Notes: generated from the letters alone by a model not told the origin. Counted from the stretch's first letter, positions 10,600-60,441 are shown. The stretch: 64,000 nt of DNA from a virus (IMGVR_UViG_3300028844_004047:1-64000), one strand, 5' to 3'. Made by a program: numbers and translations.

Positions 10600-10677
10600 C
10601 TCCTGGTAGCTCAGTTGGATTAGAGCAACGGTCTTCTAAACCGTAGGTCGCAGGTTCGAGTCCTGCTCAGGAGGCCA
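10600..10677 (+). tRNA. tRNA-Arg (anticodon TCT)
   Basis: Complete cloverleaf: acceptor CTCCTGG/TCAGGAG, anticodon stem ACGGT/ACCGT with TCT at 10635-10637, T arm GCAGG-TTCGAGT-CCTGC, encoded CCA at 10675-10677. It reads AGA, which the phage uses very heavily for Arg. Confidence 0.95.
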
Positions 10678-10682
10678 ATTAT

Positions 10683-10716
10683 AGGCAATGGTACTTTAAA
10701 GTATCATTGCCTTTTT
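10683..10716 (+). terminator. Rho-independent terminator after tRNA-Arg
   Basis: AGGCAATGGTACTT pairs with AAGTATCATTGCCT (one wobble), followed by TTTT. It ends the long early transcript. Confidence 0.85.
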
Positions 10717-10721
10717 GGGTG

Positions 10722-10729
10722 AATAAATA
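10722..10729 (+). promoter_or_regulatory. Late promoter AATAAATA
   Basis: Directly after the terminator and 23 nt before the ATG at 10753, with AAAGGTG as ribosome binding site between. It drives the five-gene operon to 14374. Confidence 0.65.
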
Positions 10730-10752
10730 CTAATATAATCTAAAGGTGAAAA

Positions 10753-11868
10753 ATGAAGGCTTTTGTTATTGTCCACGATAATCCGAAGGACACATGGTTT
10801 TATAAGGTCGCCACCAACTACACTAAACTTAATTTTGATTACTGTATGGCAGACCGTTTTAGCGAAAATGCTGAATGGCATTTTTATGAGACCAATAACC
10901 TTGATTGGAAAAAGTTCAATCAATATGATTTCACTGTTGCAGTTAAACCTGGAACTATATTCCCTTATTCATATTTCCAAAGAGTTATAGAACACCAAAT
11001 TGGTAAATTCAAATGGAACACCGTTGGACCATCTATGATTTATTGCCCAACAGGCGTAGGAACCACAGAAATTAAACTACCATATAACTTCAGCCATGTA
11101 AACCCAGAAAATGCAGACACATTTAGTGAAACACATGATAGTGCAATAGATATGGTTTTAAAGAATTCAAACCTGGCTTACGTTGTACACAATGAGATAC
11201 CAAAGCCCGTGTATGAGCTTAACAAACCCGTTAAATGGGCAATGACAGTGAGTTCTGGCTTCTATATTAACTATATTCTACAAGATGCTGGCTTTGATAA
11301 TAACACTATTGTAAACCATATTGATATAAGCAAAAGCAGTTTAGCAGTAAGAAAGTATACAATAGAACACTGGGACGGAGAAGATTATTTGTCTTGGTTA
11401 GACCATTTATATGATAAATTTCCCTTATTAACAGTCTTTAACGGAAAACAATTTAGACGTGGACATAGACCCACTCATAATGTTTTAGAACATATGGACA
11501 CAAAATGGACAAAGAGTCAATGGCAAGAACATTGGAAAAAATATCAAAAATGTAAACACAATTATTATGTTTGTAACTTAGGAGATACTAGTGCATTCAA
11601 AAAAATATTAGCAGAACATAGAGCATATGATTCTAGTGTATTTTGGTATAACGGTGCATTAAAAAGACAACCTGCAAATGTTAATAAAACAAGTAACCAA
11701 AGTCATCAAAATGCAAAAAGATTTATTGATACTTTAGTGAATTACAATCCAGAATTATTGGTATATGGATCGGATCATTGTTGTAATACATTTAATGGAA
11801 TAACATCTAAACAAGCACTAGAACAAATGGCAAGAGATTCAAGAGCAGATTTATGGAAACAGGTGTAA
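10753..11868 (+). CDS. Unknown 371-aa protein heading a modification-type operon
   Basis: Large soluble protein with no signal peptide or membrane segment. It has an alpha/beta N-terminal half (MKAFVIVHDN.., FTVAVKPGTIF near residue 60) and a Trp/His/Lys-rich C-terminal half. The first half has the look of a glycosyltransferase-like or Rossmann-like fold, but I see no diagnostic motif and do not assign one. It overlaps the PP-loop ATPase gene by 16 nt, so the two products are probably made together. A late promoter lies upstream. Confidence 0.7.
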   Translation: MKAFVIVHDNPKDTWFYKVATNYTKLNFDYCMADRFSENAEWHFYETNNLDWKKFNQYDFTVAVKPGTIFPYSYFQRVIEHQIGKFKWNTVGPSMIYCPTGVGTTEIKLPYNFSHVNPENADTFSETHDSAIDMVLKNSNLAYVVHNEIPKPVYELNKPVKWAMTVSSGFYINYILQDAGFDNNTIVNHIDISKSSLAVRKYTIEHWDGEDYLSWLDHLYDKFPLLTVFNGKQFRRGHRPTHNVLEHMDTKWTKSQWQEHWKKYQKCKHNYYVCNLGDTSAFKKILAEHRAYDSSVFWYNGALKRQPANVNKTSNQSHQNAKRFIDTLVNYNPELLVYGSDHCCNTFNGITSKQALEQMARDSRADLWKQV

Positions 11869-12440
11869 TACCACAACATAAACGTATAGGCATTTTGTTT
11901 AGTGGAGGTGCTGATAGTACACTTATGTTATATCAACTTTCCAAAACACATCCAGACAGTGAGTTTTATTTGTATGTAGGATCTAGATTAGATGACGGTC
12001 AATATCATTTAGATAATTGTAATAATATACTAAATGAATTAAAACTAAATAATATTAAAGCATATGCAATATATACTTTTAAAGATAGAGCTGAAGGAAA
12101 AGCAAATAGAGATAAGTTAAGAAAACAATTTTTTGATTATCATAACTTAGATTGCTTTATAAATGGCTTTACTCGAAACCCTTCCGAATACATTGGAGAA
12201 GGCGAAGACCAATCACGCAACAAACAAATGGAAAAGGTAGTTACTACACCGAATGGGTTAACTATGTATAGACCTTTAGCAGATTTAGATAAAAAAGGTG
12301 TTGCAAAACTTTATAAAGAATACGGTATATTAGATTCTTTATTTCCATTAACTATAAGTTGTGAAGCAAAACAACCACCGAGACCTTGTAAAGAATGTTG
12401 GTGGTGTAAAGAAAGGCACTGGGCCTTTGGAGAATATTAA
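11853..12440 (+). CDS. PP-loop ATP pyrophosphatase, QueC-like
   Basis: Adenylates a substrate using ATP and releases pyrophosphate. SGGADST at 17-23 is the PP-loop signature. The C-terminal Cys set (SCEAKQPP, CKECWWCKER) matches the zinc site position of QueC, which makes 7-cyano-7-deazaguanine. At 195 residues it is slightly shorter than typical QueC. No QueD, QueE or FolE is present in this window, so queuosine or deazaguanine synthesis is not shown. The genes around it (two oxygenases, a methyltransferase) suggest a multi-step modification. Confidence 0.78.
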   Translation: METGVIPQHKRIGILFSGGADSTLMLYQLSKTHPDSEFYLYVGSRLDDGQYHLDNCNNILNELKLNNIKAYAIYTFKDRAEGKANRDKLRKQFFDYHNLDCFINGFTRNPSEYIGEGEDQSRNKQMEKVVTTPNGLTMYRPLADLDKKGVAKLYKEYGILDSLFPLTISCEAKQPPRPCKECWWCKERHWAFGEY

Positions 12441-13228
12441 TGCAATTTTATGATTTAGAATTTAGTAGAGATCCTTTATTGATGTGGGAAAAGTTAAAAA
12501 CAAAACCACCGGTTGATAAAGAAGGATACAATAGCCTTTATGATTTTTGTAAAGCAACAAGTAGATATCACTTTGACGAATCAAGAGATGATATTGTAGA
12601 ACTAGATGGGGATTGTCCTCCAGTAATACCTGTTGGAAATTTTGGTGGAGACTGGGACGAAGCAGTAGCAGAATTAAGTAAAGAAACTAAACCAGCAGAT
12701 TTTAAGTTTCGTAAAGAAACTAGAAAAGATACAACAAACGATTGGGAAGAAAACGACTTTAAAAAATGGGGATATGATATCGATGGTGGATACACTATTG
12801 CAAATAGAACTTTACACCCTAAACTAAAAGATAGTTTACAATATATTGTTGATGCATTTGGATTTGAAAAACCAGGTGTAGTAAAATTTGATGTACAAAA
12901 ACCTGGGCAATGTTTTTATTGGCATTTAGATAATTTTGGTGGAGTACTTAAAAAATCCAGACAAGAATATGATAATGCTGATAAAGGAGATTTGGATCAA
13001 CGTAAAGTAATGAGAACAATGATATTTTTAGATGACCAGCATCAAGGACAAATATTTCAACTAGGCAATCTATTAATAAAATGGAAACGTGGCGATTGTA
13101 TTACATGGCCCTGGAGAGATGTTCCACATGGAACTTGTAATTACGGACATAAACCAAGACCCGTGCTAAACATAACTGGCGTAGTAACAGAAAAAACTAA
13201 AGAATTTCTATCTAATGCAACAACTTAA
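12440..13228 (+). CDS. 2OG-Fe(II) oxygenase-like protein, Asp/Asn hydroxylase type
   Basis: 262 residues. WHLDN (about 174-178) supplies the His and Asp iron ligands, and VPHGTCNYGHKPRPVLNITG, i.e. the region from about 232, supplies the distal His and the Arg that binds 2-oxoglutarate. This matches aspartyl/asparaginyl beta-hydroxylase-like dioxygenases. The first 120 residues are a charged region of unknown role. Its start shares one base with the previous stop. Confidence 0.75.
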   Translation: MQFYDLEFSRDPLLMWEKLKTKPPVDKEGYNSLYDFCKATSRYHFDESRDDIVELDGDCPPVIPVGNFGGDWDEAVAELSKETKPADFKFRKETRKDTTNDWEENDFKKWGYDIDGGYTIANRTLHPKLKDSLQYIVDAFGFEKPGVVKFDVQKPGQCFYWHLDNFGGVLKKSRQEYDNADKGDLDQRKVMRTMIFLDDQHQGQIFQLGNLLIKWKRGDCITWPWRDVPHGTCNYGHKPRPVLNITGVVTEKTKEFLSNATT

Positions 13229-13754
13229 AGATATCTTTCAACAAGGTAGTACAGACATTTATAGATGGCCCGATTGTGCTACACCTATGATAGATAAGAT
13301 AAATGAATTAAAACCAAACGCAGTAATAGATTTAGGCTGTGGTGCTAATTTATACAAAAAGTGGATTAATAATTTAGTTGGTTTAGATATAGCAACTACT
13401 GAAGCAGATATAAATGGTTTAATTGAAGATTTACCATTTAATGATAATAGTGCAGATGTTGTACTTGCTTTAGGTAGTATAAATTTTGGTAGTGAAGATT
13501 TAATCAGAACACAACTTGACGAAGTAAAAAGAATAACAAAGCCAAGCGGACATATATTTTTTAGAGTTATGTGTGAACATAAACATGAACTATATTATCC
13601 ATGGAATGAAAAGAAAGCAAAACAGTTTGCAAAAGAATTTGGATTTACATTTGTAGATGGACCTAGAGTTATATATAAAACAATATGGGAAACTAGAGAA
13701 AAAACAGTCGGTGATAGAGGGCAAGAAAGGCTTTATTGGGAATGGACAATTTAA
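13215..13754 (+). CDS. SAM-dependent methyltransferase, class I
   Basis: 179 residues with motif I VIDLGCGANLYKKW (about 37-50), acidic end of strand 2 (VGLDIA), and DLPFNDNSADVVLALGS as motifs for the SAM pocket. The substrate is unknown. It overlaps both neighbours by 13-14 nt, so it is made in step with the two oxygenases and the PP-loop enzyme. Confidence 0.82.
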   Translation: MQQLKDIFQQGSTDIYRWPDCATPMIDKINELKPNAVIDLGCGANLYKKWINNLVGLDIATTEADINGLIEDLPFNDNSADVVLALGSINFGSEDLIRTQLDEVKRITKPSGHIFFRVMCEHKHELYYPWNEKKAKQFAKEFGFTFVDGPRVIYKTIWETREKTVGDRGQERLYWEWTI

Positions 13755-14374
13755 GAATTTATAGCGGAACATCAGAAGCAGAACATCATTGTGTACTAGA
13801 AGGTGTTGTTTGGGATAAACAGGAATTATTAGATTTTTATAATCAGTTTGATGACAGTTGTCATTTACCATGGAATGAATTTAAAAAGAAATACAATAAA
13901 GACAATCCTTATCGCAAAACACTTACTGATAAGTTTAGACAAATATACGCACCTAATTTTGAAGGTAAAGAACTTATTGAATATCCAGTTATACAAAAGT
14001 TTATTAAACAGTTTAATTTTAAAGTACCATTAAGTGTAACAGATGTACAAATATTAGCATACGAACCTGGCTTTGCATTTGTACCGCATATTGACCAAGA
14101 GGTAGAATTAAGCATTATGTTACCTATTATTCCAGATGATGGTGGCGAGCCTTTAACATTTTTAGAAGGAGATGACTTTCGCAATCCTGGAAAAGAGATT
14201 TACAAAGTTTATTACAGTACAGAACATCCAACATTAGTAACAGGTAAAACTATTCATAGTGTTGAAGAAATGAAAGATTTCAGAGTAGTATTACGTTTTC
14301 GTACAAATGGAGAAACATACGAAGATGTAATTAAAAAACATAAAAAAGGTGAATTTATTTTACCATTATCGTAA
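13742..14374 (+). CDS. 2OG-Fe(II) oxygenase
   Basis: The ATG at 13742 is preferred to a TTG at 13736. PHIDQEVELSIMLPI (about 115-129) holds the HxD iron ligands; TIHSVEEMKDFRVVLRFR near 175-192 holds the distal His and the Arg for 2-oxoglutarate. 210 residues is normal for a stand-alone phage dioxygenase. Last gene of the late operon; an independent tRNA promoter follows 9 nt later. Confidence 0.8.
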   Translation: MDNLRIYSGTSEAEHHCVLEGVVWDKQELLDFYNQFDDSCHLPWNEFKKKYNKDNPYRKTLTDKFRQIYAPNFEGKELIEYPVIQKFIKQFNFKVPLSVTDVQILAYEPGFAFVPHIDQEVELSIMLPIIPDDGGEPLTFLEGDDFRNPGKEIYKVYYSTEHPTLVTGKTIHSVEEMKDFRVVLRFRTNGETYEDVIKKHKKGEFILPLS

Positions 14375-14432: not shown

Positions 14433-14518
14433 GGGGGTGCGGTGCAGTTGGAGAGGCACACTGGTCTCCAAAACCAGGACATGAGTCAAAATAGGTTCGA
14501 ATCCTTTCACCTCTGCCA
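14433..14518 (+). tRNA. tRNA-Trp (anticodon CCA), unusual long variable region
   Basis: Acceptor GGGGGTG/CACCTCT with two G-T pairs, D stem GTGC/GCAC, anticodon stem CTGGT/ACCAG with CCA at 14468-14470, encoded CCA tail. Between the anticodon and T stems lie about 13 nt (GACATGAGTCAAA) that can form a GAC/GTC mini-stem, where tRNA-Trp normally has about 5. Position 8 is C instead of U and the T stem has one mismatch. Confidence 0.82.
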
Positions 14519-15085: not shown

Positions 15086-15325
15086 ATGGGAAGAGTATTT
15101 ACACAAGACACACTTAACACTACCGGCTATAACAAAAGTGAACTTATTCTAGTTTTAACAAAAATGATTAGAACTGGACTAGCAAAAAGTGTGGGTGAAG
15201 CAATAAAAATGCTAGACGAGGGTACAGTAAATAAAGAAGAATTGTTAGAATTAGTTATTAAATCCCATCAACAAGAACTTCCTAAGTCTGAAACACAGGA
15301 AGAAGTTAAAGTTAACGTAAGGTAA
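15086..15325 (+). CDS. Hypothetical protein, 79 aa
   Basis: GAAAGGA before the ATG. Helical, with ELILVLTKMIRTGLAKSVGE resembling a small helix-turn-helix-like bundle but without a clear DNA-binding signature. Followed by an acidic tail. Confidence 0.65.
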   Translation: MGRVFTQDTLNTTGYNKSELILVLTKMIRTGLAKSVGEAIKMLDEGTVNKEELLELVIKSHQQELPKSETQEEVKVNVR

Positions 15326-27565: not shown

Positions 27566-28804
27566 ATGACATATAGAATTAATAAGGCAAATGCATACAA
27601 TGGATGGGATCCTTTAAAACAGGTTGTACTTGGAAATGTATTTGAACCAGAGTTCTTTGAAGACCTTAAAGACCATAAGTTAAGAGATTTACTACAAAAA
27701 CTTTTATACGAAACACACGAAGATTTAGACAACATACAAAAAACACTTGAAGATTTAGGAGTTGATGTAGTACGTTTACACCCTAATTTAACTCAAGCCG
27801 CCACGTTGGCAGAAACAACAACACACGGCGTTGGTTATTCTAGTATTATGGAATACTATGAAGAACAAAAATCAGCATTTAATGGAATACCTAAGCCTGC
27901 ATTAATGCCTAGAGATTACTTAATAACAATGGGCGATAAAATATTGTTAACACAACAATATCCAGAGTTTCACAAATTTATGACATCAAGCGGACAAAAC
28001 TTTATTAATCCGGATTGTTTGGATATGAGATTAACAGTTGATCCAAAAAAAAGAAAATTTAGAGGACCATTAAGACCTAGAAAAGAATATGTTGAATATG
28101 ATACTACATATAAAGCAGAATGGTTTGATGTAAATATTCCAGAAGGAACGTTTTCTAATGATCCTGATTTTATAAGAGCAATGGGTTATACTTGGGGATT
28201 TTGGGCACCAACTGTAACTAGAGTTGGCGACACTTTAATATTAGATACTAAAGATGTTGAAAATTTAGATGATGTAATGATAGAATTGTATCCACAATTT
28301 AAACGTACAAATACTGCTAACGGTGGTCACAGTGATGCAACATTTAATTTACCTAAACCTGGACTTGTTATTTGTGCTTCTTATCTAGATAAAGATACTT
28401 TTAAAGAAACTTGCCCGGGCTGGGACGTTTTAAAAATTCGTACAGGTACAGAAAAAACTATGGAATCAGAATATGGTAGTTGGCAACAACAAAAGCATCT
28501 TACTGATGGTAAATGGTGGACACCTGATGCTAAAGATAATCCAGGATATACAAAGTTTATTGAAGAATGGTTAAACACTTGGACAGGGTATTCAGAAGAA
28601 ACACAATTCGAAGTTAATATGTTAAGTGTAAATGAAAATACAATTTTATCTATGAATTACCAAAAGCAAGTACATGATAAATTAAAAGAACATAAAATTG
28701 AGCCTATTTACTGTCGTTTTAGACACAGAAACTTCTGGGATGGTGGTTTACACTGCTTAACACTAGATACAGTTCGTGAAGGTGGAATGCAAAGTTACTT
28801 TTAA
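27566..28804 (+). CDS. Amidinotransferase family enzyme (glycine amidinotransferase-like)
   Basis: 412 residues of the beta/alpha propeller guanidine-modifying superfamily. NGGHSDATFN near 253 and the C-terminal GGLHCLTLDTVREGG with nucleophile Cys397 match arginine:glycine amidinotransferase-like enzymes, which move the amidino group of arginine to an amine. Full length with catalytic Cys and His present. Substrates are unknown; polyamine, arginine or small-molecule modification are possible. Late expressed with the GNAT-like gene. Confidence 0.82.
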   Translation: MTYRINKANAYNGWDPLKQVVLGNVFEPEFFEDLKDHKLRDLLQKLLYETHEDLDNIQKTLEDLGVDVVRLHPNLTQAATLAETTTHGVGYSSIMEYYEEQKSAFNGIPKPALMPRDYLITMGDKILLTQQYPEFHKFMTSSGQNFINPDCLDMRLTVDPKKRKFRGPLRPRKEYVEYDTTYKAEWFDVNIPEGTFSNDPDFIRAMGYTWGFWAPTVTRVGDTLILDTKDVENLDDVMIELYPQFKRTNTANGGHSDATFNLPKPGLVICASYLDKDTFKETCPGWDVLKIRTGTEKTMESEYGSWQQQKHLTDGKWWTPDAKDNPGYTKFIEEWLNTWTGYSEETQFEVNMLSVNENTILSMNYQKQVHDKLKEHKIEPIYCRFRHRNFWDGGLHCLTLDTVREGGMQSYF

Positions 28805-44474: not shown

Positions 44475-45182
44475 ATGTTCAATCCTGGAATATTCTCTCC
44501 AGATGTACAACAGAAGTACAAGGATCATTTTACTAACAAGGGCTGGCTTGCAATCGATGATATATTACACGAAGAATATATTACACATCTGTACGAATCT
44601 GTACAAAATTTAAATTATGATTATAGAGGTGGAGTTGGCGACTGGTACGAAGAAGTCCCATATACTCAACCTGCTGAAGGTGAATTATTAAAACAAAAAG
44701 TTCAACACTCTATGTTTAATGACGATTTTTCATTTTTTCATAGAATTGCAAAAGTTAGAAGAGATAGCAAATATACAAATAAACACACAGAAGAATTTGC
44801 ACAAGAAGTAAACTTGGGTAAAACATTTAAAGAATGGGTACAAAATCTTACAGGATTTGATAACCTATATACAACTTACCCTACATTTAGTTTTTACAAG
44901 TACGATAACTGGATTACATCACATTATGATCCTACTAGAAAAGTTGCTTATTTGTTTTACTTTACAAAAGAATGGAAAACAGAGTATGGCGGGCAACTAT
45001 GTTTACAAGATGAGCAAGATAAAGTACATACAACAATAGCACCAATTGGCAACAGATTAGTGCTCTTAGACGTGTCAAAGCCGTCGTATAACAAGCATTT
45101 CGTTAGTCCTGTTAGTTTTGTAGCACCTACGCCAAGATATAGTCTCGTAGGTTGGTATAGTGAAAAACCACCCAAGAATTAG
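44475..45182 (+). CDS. 2OG-Fe(II) oxygenase, prolyl-hydroxylase-like
   Basis: 235 residues. SHYDPTRKVAYLFYF (about 140-154) gives the HxD ligands, YGGQLCLQ follows, and HFVSPV plus RYSLVGWY supply the distal His and the 2OG-binding Arg. This is the most canonical of the oxygenases in the window. Substrate unknown; located within the lysis/late block. Confidence 0.83.
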   Translation: MFNPGIFSPDVQQKYKDHFTNKGWLAIDDILHEEYITHLYESVQNLNYDYRGGVGDWYEEVPYTQPAEGELLKQKVQHSMFNDDFSFFHRIAKVRRDSKYTNKHTEEFAQEVNLGKTFKEWVQNLTGFDNLYTTYPTFSFYKYDNWITSHYDPTRKVAYLFYFTKEWKTEYGGQLCLQDEQDKVHTTIAPIGNRLVLLDVSKPSYNKHFVSPVSFVAPTPRYSLVGWYSEKPPKN

Positions 45183-54802: not shown

Positions 54803-55588
54803 ATGGCGCATAAAGACGACAAATATACCAAAGACGGTAAAAAGATCGACTGGATAAAAAACAGACCTTCAGCACCTAATTACTATAAACATAGATTCAT
54901 TAATGATGGTGTTACTGCATGGCAAATGCCTGACCCATCACAAGAAGATATTATGTGTGAGTTACAATTACAAGCCATTGGCGACTTTGCTCCTTTAGAT
55001 ATTACAATAGATGAAAGTTTATTTAGAAAAGAATTAAAACAATACGAAGATAAATGGGTACCTTACTTAAGACGTGAAGGGGTTACTAATGATAGAGAAG
55101 GATTATTGTTAGTAGGTGCTGAAGGAGATTCAGTAGGAGATAGTTTAAGTATGCCTGAAGTTAGAAAACGTTTAGGCGAAATACCAGGTAAACGTCTTTT
55201 AGAAACAGATTTATGTTACCCAACAGAAGCATTTCATAATTTAACTGCCTTATACCCAATAACAAAATACTTTGATAAGTTAGGCAGATCCATGCTAGTA
55301 AAATTAAACAAAGGCGGTTGGTTCCCACCACATAGAGATACACCACAATTAAGCAGAGATTGTTTTAGAGTGGTAGGCTTCTTAAGTAGAAGTTGTGGGC
55401 ATGGTGGATTTATGTGGGAACATGATTATAGACCTGTACAAATAGAACCTATGCGTTGTTATTATGCAGATACAAGAAAAACTCATAGAACCGCGGCATT
55501 TGATTCCGATATTATTCATTTAGTAATTAACGTTCCTAAAACTTGGGAAAACGTATTAAAATTATTAAGTATCACCGAACATCATTAA
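54803..55588 (+). CDS. 2OG-Fe(II) oxygenase, Asp/Asn hydroxylase-like, 261 aa
   Basis: The core is at the C-terminal half: WFPPHRDTPQLSRDCFRVVGFL (HRD as HxD ligands, split over residues 172-193) and TRKTHRTAAFDSDIIHLVINV (about 224-244) with distal His and Arg. The N-terminal 100 residues are charged. Transcribed from a sigma70-type promoter, unlike the other oxygenases. Confidence 0.75.
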   Translation: MAHKDDKYTKDGKKIDWIKNRPSAPNYYKHRFINDGVTAWQMPDPSQEDIMCELQLQAIGDFAPLDITIDESLFRKELKQYEDKWVPYLRREGVTNDREGLLLVGAEGDSVGDSLSMPEVRKRLGEIPGKRLLETDLCYPTEAFHNLTALYPITKYFDKLGRSMLVKLNKGGWFPPHRDTPQLSRDCFRVVGFLSRSCGHGGFMWEHDYRPVQIEPMRCYYADTRKTHRTAAFDSDIIHLVINVPKTWENVLKLLSITEHH

Positions 55589-59779: not shown

Positions 59780-59974
59780 ATGTCCTTTAAGGACACAAAC
59801 TACGCCGCCTTAGATTATTGTCAAAATTGCGGACATGGATCACATTGCGGAGGTTCTTTATGGAAAGAAGTAATAGACTATCCGTCCGAACAACCAAAAG
59901 AATACAGACAAATAGAAGTTTGTAAACATTGTAGATGTAAAAAATGCTTAACGAACGACAACAAAGTATCTTAA
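59780..59974 (+). CDS. Small zinc-binding protein, 64 aa
   Basis: CQNCGHGSHCGG and CKHCRCKKC give seven Cys and two His, enough for one or two zinc sites. Starts 4 nt after the previous stop. The end overlaps the following oxygenase gene by 31 nt. Confidence 0.66.
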   Translation: MSFKDTNYAALDYCQNCGHGSHCGGSLWKEVIDYPSEQPKEYRQIEVCKHCRCKKCLTNDNKVS

Positions 59975-60441
59975 ACAAAACTTCTCCTACACTCATCATT
60001 AAAAATTTTATATCTGAACCAGAACAGATACACTTACTAAACATACACAAAGATAGACCAGATTCTGAAAAAGTATTTAAGAATACAGGTCCTATTGCTA
60101 GTAAGTTACCACATAAAGACGACGGACACTTCCAAAATATAATGAGTAGAGTTGAAGACGTACTTCGTACAAAAGTAAAACCATTCGGTGGTAATTACTT
60201 CACTGTACGACATCCACATATACTACACAATGATGTACCACACGACCATAATATTATACCTGGTAAGTGTATAGTATTACCATTGGAAAAAGTATATACA
60301 AAATATCAATTTCCTATGTTAGATGACGCACAGTTTTATATCTTTGATCAAATGTATTTTGATCGTCCAGTTAAACATATGAAGATGTTTATAACTTACA
60401 TGAAGACAATAGACTACCTGACACAAAAACAGGACATATGA
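59944..60441 (+). CDS. 2OG-Fe(II) oxygenase-like, N-terminal part of split gene
   Basis: TLIIKNFISEPE (start of many dioxygenases), then LHNDVPHDHNIIPGKCIVLPLE (about 99-120), giving the first iron ligands. After about residue 143 (FDRPVK) the frame loses family resemblance, while the -1 frame continues with sensible sequence (TYEDVYNLHEDNRLPD) into the C-terminal half. One extra A in the AAA at 60373-60375 would restore a single gene to 60602. Confidence 0.7.
   Translation: MLNERQQSILNKTSPTLIIKNFISEPEQIHLLNIHKDRPDSEKVFKNTGPIASKLPHKDDGHFQNIMSRVEDVLRTKVKPFGGNYFTVRHPHILHNDVPHDHNIIPGKCIVLPLEKVYTKYQFPMLDDAQFYIFDQMYFDRPVKHMKMFITYMKTIDYLTQKQDI

Follow-up and report, generated by a model that had tools for sequence, protein, structure and literature searches.

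What would a phage modify, late in infection, with a QueC-like PP-loop ATPase, Fe(II)/2-oxoglutarate (2OG) oxygenases and methyltransferases encoded side by side? The question is raised by a five-gene operon (open reading frames ORF1 to ORF5) in the virus contig IMGVR_UViG_3300028844_004047, an 80,349-base record of which positions 1-64,000, the whole stretch analyzed here (the window, 64,000 nt), contain the operon. The phage that carries it is T4-like, with genes that include a T4-type DNA polymerase, clamp loader and baseplate-connector, and from its gene content it is probably marine. A previous sequence-only reading had seen in the operon a modification pathway that is not simply the queuosine route. 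Conserved motifs, gene order, purifying selection and sub-modules that recur in distant phages make a predicted modification cassette well supported. Our tentative reading is that T4-like phages express a modular tailoring cassette late in infection, which would carry out hydroxylating and group-transfer chemistry on a protein or an amino-acid-like molecule.

Enzymes encoded by the operon

ORF3 is an AspH-fold Fe(II)/2OG oxygenase in which the iron triad and the distal arginine are intact. The HxD...H...R motif is invariant across 13 ORF3 homologues, and the structural model (predicted local distance difference test, pLDDT, 79) finds its best fold matches in AspH and prolyl hydroxylases (E = 2e-4, probability 1.00), that is, in protein or amino-acid hydroxylases, as expected of the 2OG-Fe(II) oxygenase-like protein originally proposed. 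ORF3 shares the 2OG fold, the motif and its best PDB fold matches with the aspartyl/asparaginyl beta-hydroxylases (PF05118, Asp_Arg_Hydrox), but it scores below the gathering cut-off of that family (16.7 versus 22.6 bits) and carries phage motifs of its own, YWHLDNFGG and TWPWRDVPHGT; an AspH-like profile found no relative in the 84,980-genome GTDB collection. ORF4 matches Methyltransf_11 above the cut-off (E = 8.9e-9; 36.3 versus 21.2 bits) and retains a conserved motif I (DLGCGxN), assigning it, as in the earlier reading, to the class I S-adenosylmethionine (SAM) methyltransferases.

ORF2 had been described as a QueC-like PP-loop ATPase with a cysteine cluster, and the description stands: it matches PF06508, the QueC superfamily, above the cut-off (E = 1.4e-9; 38.2 versus 22 bits), with SGGADS at residue 17 and the zinc motif CEAKQPPRPCKECWWC, of the form C(x)8CxxCxxC, at residue 170. 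The ORF2-type QueC-like PP-loop (PP) proteins form a clade of 52 distinct IMG/VR sequences, mostly with CxxCWWC. Canonical QueC is defined by YxQxHxxE, VPxRN, YPDC and a zinc-loop tyrosine (Biochem J 2026 survey, PMC13329287), and Y35, R99, Y131 and Y189 in these motifs are essential in E. coli (PMC13329287). None of the four substrate motifs is present in any of the 52 PP proteins, which speaks against ORF2 as a canonical QueC of the queuosine route; the sequence-only reading was right to set that route aside, although it had done so because it saw no QueD, QueE or FolE. ORF2 is like canonical QueC in its size (about 195-230 aa), SGGxDS, C(x)8CxxCxxC and a conserved lysine (K147, which aligns with E. 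coli K165), and unlike it in lacking these four motifs and carrying CWWCKExxWAFG; its score against TIGR00364 is 28.6 bits, far under the cut-off of 150.3. By its motifs and profile matches, it is assigned as a QueC-superfamily PP-loop enzyme of a phage clade apart from canonical QueC.

Compared with solved structures, the PP family profile matches Cap9 best (1.5e-5), followed by ThiI, asparagine synthetase and QueC (1.6e-3). In type IV CBASS, Cap9 couples 7-carboxy-7-deazaguanine (CDG) to the N-terminus of a protein (PMC13279940, PMC11996544). ORF2 resembles the Cap9 and QatC deazaguanylation ligases in having a QueC scaffold without a preQ0 role and an SCE...CxxCxxC C-terminus; it differs from them in that no CD-NTase, Cap10, QatA, QatB or QatD neighbors were seen. 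Of the Cap9 substrate motifs, Y/FxQ(x)5E occurs in 2 of the 52 PP proteins, ORF2 not being one of them, and YxDC in none, so the likeness does not make ORF2 a Cap9. A PADLOC analysis of the operon proteins returned only weak matches, for example to QueC. The phages SP-15, SFP10 and Muddy encode singleton QueC-like proteins that have no queD, queE or dpdA next to them and for which another function has been suspected (PMC6884629). The PP clade is like these singletons, and like phrog_1550, in being QueC-like without those neighbors, and is set apart from their descriptions by its CWWC motif and its AspH-like or radical-SAM neighbors.

For ORF1, no Pfam or other family match was found. The protein is conserved in the homologue alignment, and its AlphaFold model (pLDDT 71) gives weak Foldseek matches, all with E > 0.001, to 3cgx, GT8, NNMT and FPP-MT. 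The N-terminal half of the model weakly resembles nucleotide-diphosphosugar transferases and the C-terminal half, also weakly, class I methyltransferases, suggesting with low confidence a GT-A-like plus a methyltransferase-like domain. ORF5 had been proposed as a second 2OG oxygenase. The HID...H...R pattern is there to be read (HID and IHS...R), but no family match exceeds threshold (the best, phrog_61, has E = 0.026), and similarity to the AspH-like profile is not convincing; its motif and weak matches indicate that it may be 2OG-like. ORF5 homologues are restricted to close relatives.

Conservation of the operon and its sub-modules

No match to the operon, ORF1 or ORF2 came up in nucleotide and protein searches of 50,697 phage records, so relatives were drawn only from IMG/VR. 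Three related contig lineages (L002, L003 and L004/L005, the last being the same sequence in two contigs) share the five-gene order and the overlaps. Catalytic residues have not been lost but are invariant across the homologues, and purifying selection acts on every one of the five genes (ratio of nonsynonymous to synonymous substitution rates, dN/dS, 0.02-0.27 among G000, L003 and L004), most strongly on ORF3 (0.02-0.07). The locus coordinates in L004 (136,449 bases) and L005 (306,714 bases) are shifted by 300, and the longer contig may be a concatenated assembly.

Farther relatives have the five-gene unit split into modules. What stays together as a core is the oxygenase-methyltransferase pair: in 7 of 8 lineages the methyltransferase gene comes immediately after that of the AspH-like oxygenase, at identities as low as about 50%, and a sulfotransferase-like gene often comes next. 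The exception is the L036-L038 lineage, in which ORF1 lies directly 5' of the oxygenase; in L006-L010 and L070, ORF1 stands before the PP gene or one gene off. Of 30 PP clusters, 9 have an AspH-like oxygenase and 7 have radical-SAM genes no more than two genes away from PP, and one cluster (L095) has a protein that exceeds the PF05118 cut-off near PP. Relatives add sulfotransferase-like, AMP-binding and radical-SAM genes next to the same core. In GTDB the PP profile matched two contigs from metagenome-assembled genomes; the one inspected (L122), with phage-tail-type and radical-SAM genes, resembles a piece of a phage genome.

Two further arrangements were seen among the relatives. PP-clade genes sit within arrays that contain as many as six radical-SAM genes (L095, L083, L098, L120 and L121), and sulfotransferase-like, acetyltransferase-like and AMP-binding genes lie beside the AspH-methyltransferase pair or ORF1 (L037:8326-10417, L006:3555-6218 and L046).

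Probable late transcription as a single unit

The earlier picture of five overlapping genes is confirmed by the ORF calls and the overlaps, and that of a late promoter before them is supported by the position and strand bias of the promoter motif. ORF1 to ORF5 are co-directional on the + strand (10753-14374) and overlap by 16, 1, 14 and 13 nt. The overlaps fit one transcription unit, but overlaps of 1-16 nt are not rare, occurring in 20 of the 98 adjacent + strand ORF pairs of the genome, so the coordinated dosage that had been read from them is unproven. ATAAATA occurs in the window 20 times on the + strand and twice on the - strand, with the + strand copies, of which the operon copy is at 10723, mostly 25-50 nt 5' of an ORF start. 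As the total of 22 is below the 43 expected from shuffles, the promoter signal lies in position and strand, not in number. The motif ATAAATAC before ORF1 is supported, on these grounds, as a candidate T4-type late promoter.

A tentative tailoring pathway

In a tailoring cassette of this kind, ORF2 would catalyze the ATP-driven adenylation of a carboxylate and its transfer to an amine, the AspH-type oxygenase ORF3 would hydroxylate the substrate and ORF4 would methylate it, with ORF1 (glycosyltransferase-like plus methyltransferase-like) and ORF5 perhaps providing further group transfer or oxidation. The order of these steps, a single substrate shared by all five proteins and the target itself are what we infer. 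The target would more probably be a side chain of a protein or peptide, or an amino-acid-like small molecule, than DNA or tRNA, which are less likely since neither a transglycosylase nor a nucleic-acid methyltransferase is linked to the operon.

Several observations weigh against this assignment. The fold assignments for ORF1 are weak and ORF5 is barely characterized; in the profile test, 15 of the 30 PP clusters have neither an AspH-like nor a radical-SAM partner nearby; the sub-modules are found apart, so the five genes need not act on one substrate; and a co-encoded CDG pathway (see below) could point to a nucleobase target.

Deazaguanine conjugation and other explanations

The statement that QueD, QueE and FolE are absent holds in the window but not beyond it. 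FolE is present in the same record at 75.4-76.1 kb, and in G002, a 136-kb relative that is colinear with the whole record, QueD-QueE lie about 6 kb further on than the end of the record; the pair is seen in the relative and not in our own record because the latter stops before the expected site. G000 and G001 (83 kb), in which ORF1 and FolE are present, both end before that site. All six records that carry ORF1 and extend to the locus (G002-G005, G010 and G016) contain QueE, and none of the 10 other tested records does; no canonical QueC was found in the genomes with ORF1 and QueE. With FolE in the record and QueD-QueE in a colinear relative, the absence can no longer serve as an argument, and CDG may be a substrate of ORF2.

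The most interesting rival to the tailoring reading, which we consider unlikely, follows from these genes: FolE, QueD and QueE of the phage would make CDG, a Cap9-like ORF2 would couple the CDG carboxylate to an amine (of a protein N-terminus or a small molecule), and the oxygenases and methyltransferases would decorate the product. Beyond the gene content, it is favored by the better match of the PP profile to Cap9 than to QueC and by the ORF2 C-terminal SCE motif, which resembles the Cap9 CE motif (PMC13329287). However, ORF2 lacks the Cap9 substrate motifs, other PP carriers (G007 and G017-G021) show no FolE, QueD or QueE, G010 has QueE with no PP in the record, and the association of QueE with ORF1 is confounded by shared ancestry. 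There is also no Cap10, and the TGT family (PF01702) was found in none of 23 records; searches for DpdA, whose families are divergent, gave neither a PF01702 match nor a phmmer match to phage 9g DpdA. A stronger version, in which Cap9-like coupling of CDG to a protein of the virion or the host, or to a decoy against type IV CBASS/Qat, is followed by decoration of the adduct by the oxygenases, the methyltransferase and ORF1, is very unlikely; if true, such phage deazaguanylation would be an undescribed class of viral protein-nucleobase modification.

Two minor observations touch on this chemistry. A 79-aa protein just 3' of the operon (window 15086-15325) begins MGR, as does its L034 homologue, a start that would expose an N-terminal glycine as in Cap9/QatC substrates, probably by chance. 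In a phage QueE (L124:6779-7684) the third cysteine is displaced by an insertion of ~34 residues (CNLQC...GCDSSYTW, compared with the usual CxxxCxxC).

Decoration of a surface glycan or lipid, of the host envelope or the virion, is distinctly improbable. Here ORF1 would transfer a sugar, PP would, like WbpG, form an amide or amidine, and the PF05118-like oxygenase would behave as the lipid hydroxylases LpxO/OlsC do. The weakly GT-A-like N-terminus of ORF1, the GT-like, epimerase-like, sulfotransferase-like and AMP-binding genes near the operon genes in relatives and the placing of WbpG in the same Pfam superfamily as ORF2 (PMC13329287) are consistent with it, but the operon contains no sugar-nucleotide pathway, the WbpG-type CxxC(x)6CxC motif was not seen in ORF2 and the LpxO comparison rests on family knowledge. 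Just as doubtful is a set of unrelated accessory genes that share a late promoter and recombine freely, with no common pathway: gene pairs do recombine in many combinations, and overlapping genes are common in this genome, yet in 7 of 8 lineages the AspH-methyltransferase adjacency survives where identity is only about 50%, and relatives share the full order. Finally, it is highly unlikely that the phage makes preQ0 for DNA or tRNA, with ORF2 as its QueC and the other genes modifying the base further, since, despite FolE, QueD and QueE in the lineage and the precedent of FolE-QueD-QueE-QueC-DpdA phages that put preQ0 in DNA (PMC6884629), the four motifs that hold the essential E. coli QueC residues are absent from the entire PP clade and neither TGT nor DpdA was found.

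Relation to known systems

Every enzyme class of the operon is already known. In open-access papers we found no description of the five-gene operon, of a CWWC-type QueC-like clade or of its recurrent association in phages with AspH-like oxygenases or arrays of radical-SAM genes. It has recently been shown that enzymes of the QueC family modify proteins in anti-phage defense. A large QueC-like clade confined to phages, and accompanied by hydroxylases, methyltransferases and radical-SAM arrays, suggests that they put this scaffold to use in chemistry of their own. The five-gene unit also bears on the role of phage "QueC-like" singletons, a question left by PMC6884629.

Coordinates and neighboring genes

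The features are collected in Table 1; ORF5 would be 212 aa long, rather than the 210 aa counted from its ATG, if the TTG at 13736 is the start. tRNA genes lie on both sides of the operon, as had been noted, with tRNA-Arg 5' and tRNA-Trp, tRNA-Leu and tRNA-Glu 3', and L003 and L004 share the Arg and Trp/Leu flanks.

Table 1. Features of the operon and its flanks in window coordinates
Feature	Position	Strand	Evidence
tRNA-Arg(tct), upstream flank	10600..10677	+	flank kept in L003, L004
Terminator-like hairpin dividing tRNA-Arg from the operon	10683..10712	+	13-bp stem with T tail
T4-type late-promoter-like motif ATAAATAC	10723..10730	+	30 nt before ORF1; strand bias, position
ORF1, 371 aa, GT-A-like N-terminus plus class I methyltransferase-like C-terminus (low confidence)	10753..11868	+	weak fold matches
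ORF2, 195 aa, divergent QueC-like PP-loop ATPase	11853..12440	+	PF06508, SGGADS, C(x)8CxxCWWC
ORF3, 262 aa, AspH-fold Fe(II)/2OG oxygenase	12440..13228	+	H162/D164/H230/R240, fold match
ORF4, 179 aa, class I SAM methyltransferase (Methyltransf_11)	13215..13754	+	DLGCG motif, Pfam
ORF5, 210 aa, second 2OG oxygenase-like	13742..14374	+	HID...H...R by reading
tRNA-Trp(cca), downstream flank	14433..14518	+	flank kept in L003, L004

Elsewhere in the window, further ORFs with an HxD...H pattern (44475-45182, 54803-55588 and 59944-60441) resemble additional 2OG oxygenases, and the phage may, from such motifs, encode five or more of these enzymes. The ORF at 27566-28804 has, by eye only, the look of a glycine amidinotransferase-type protein, which would be unusual for a phage.

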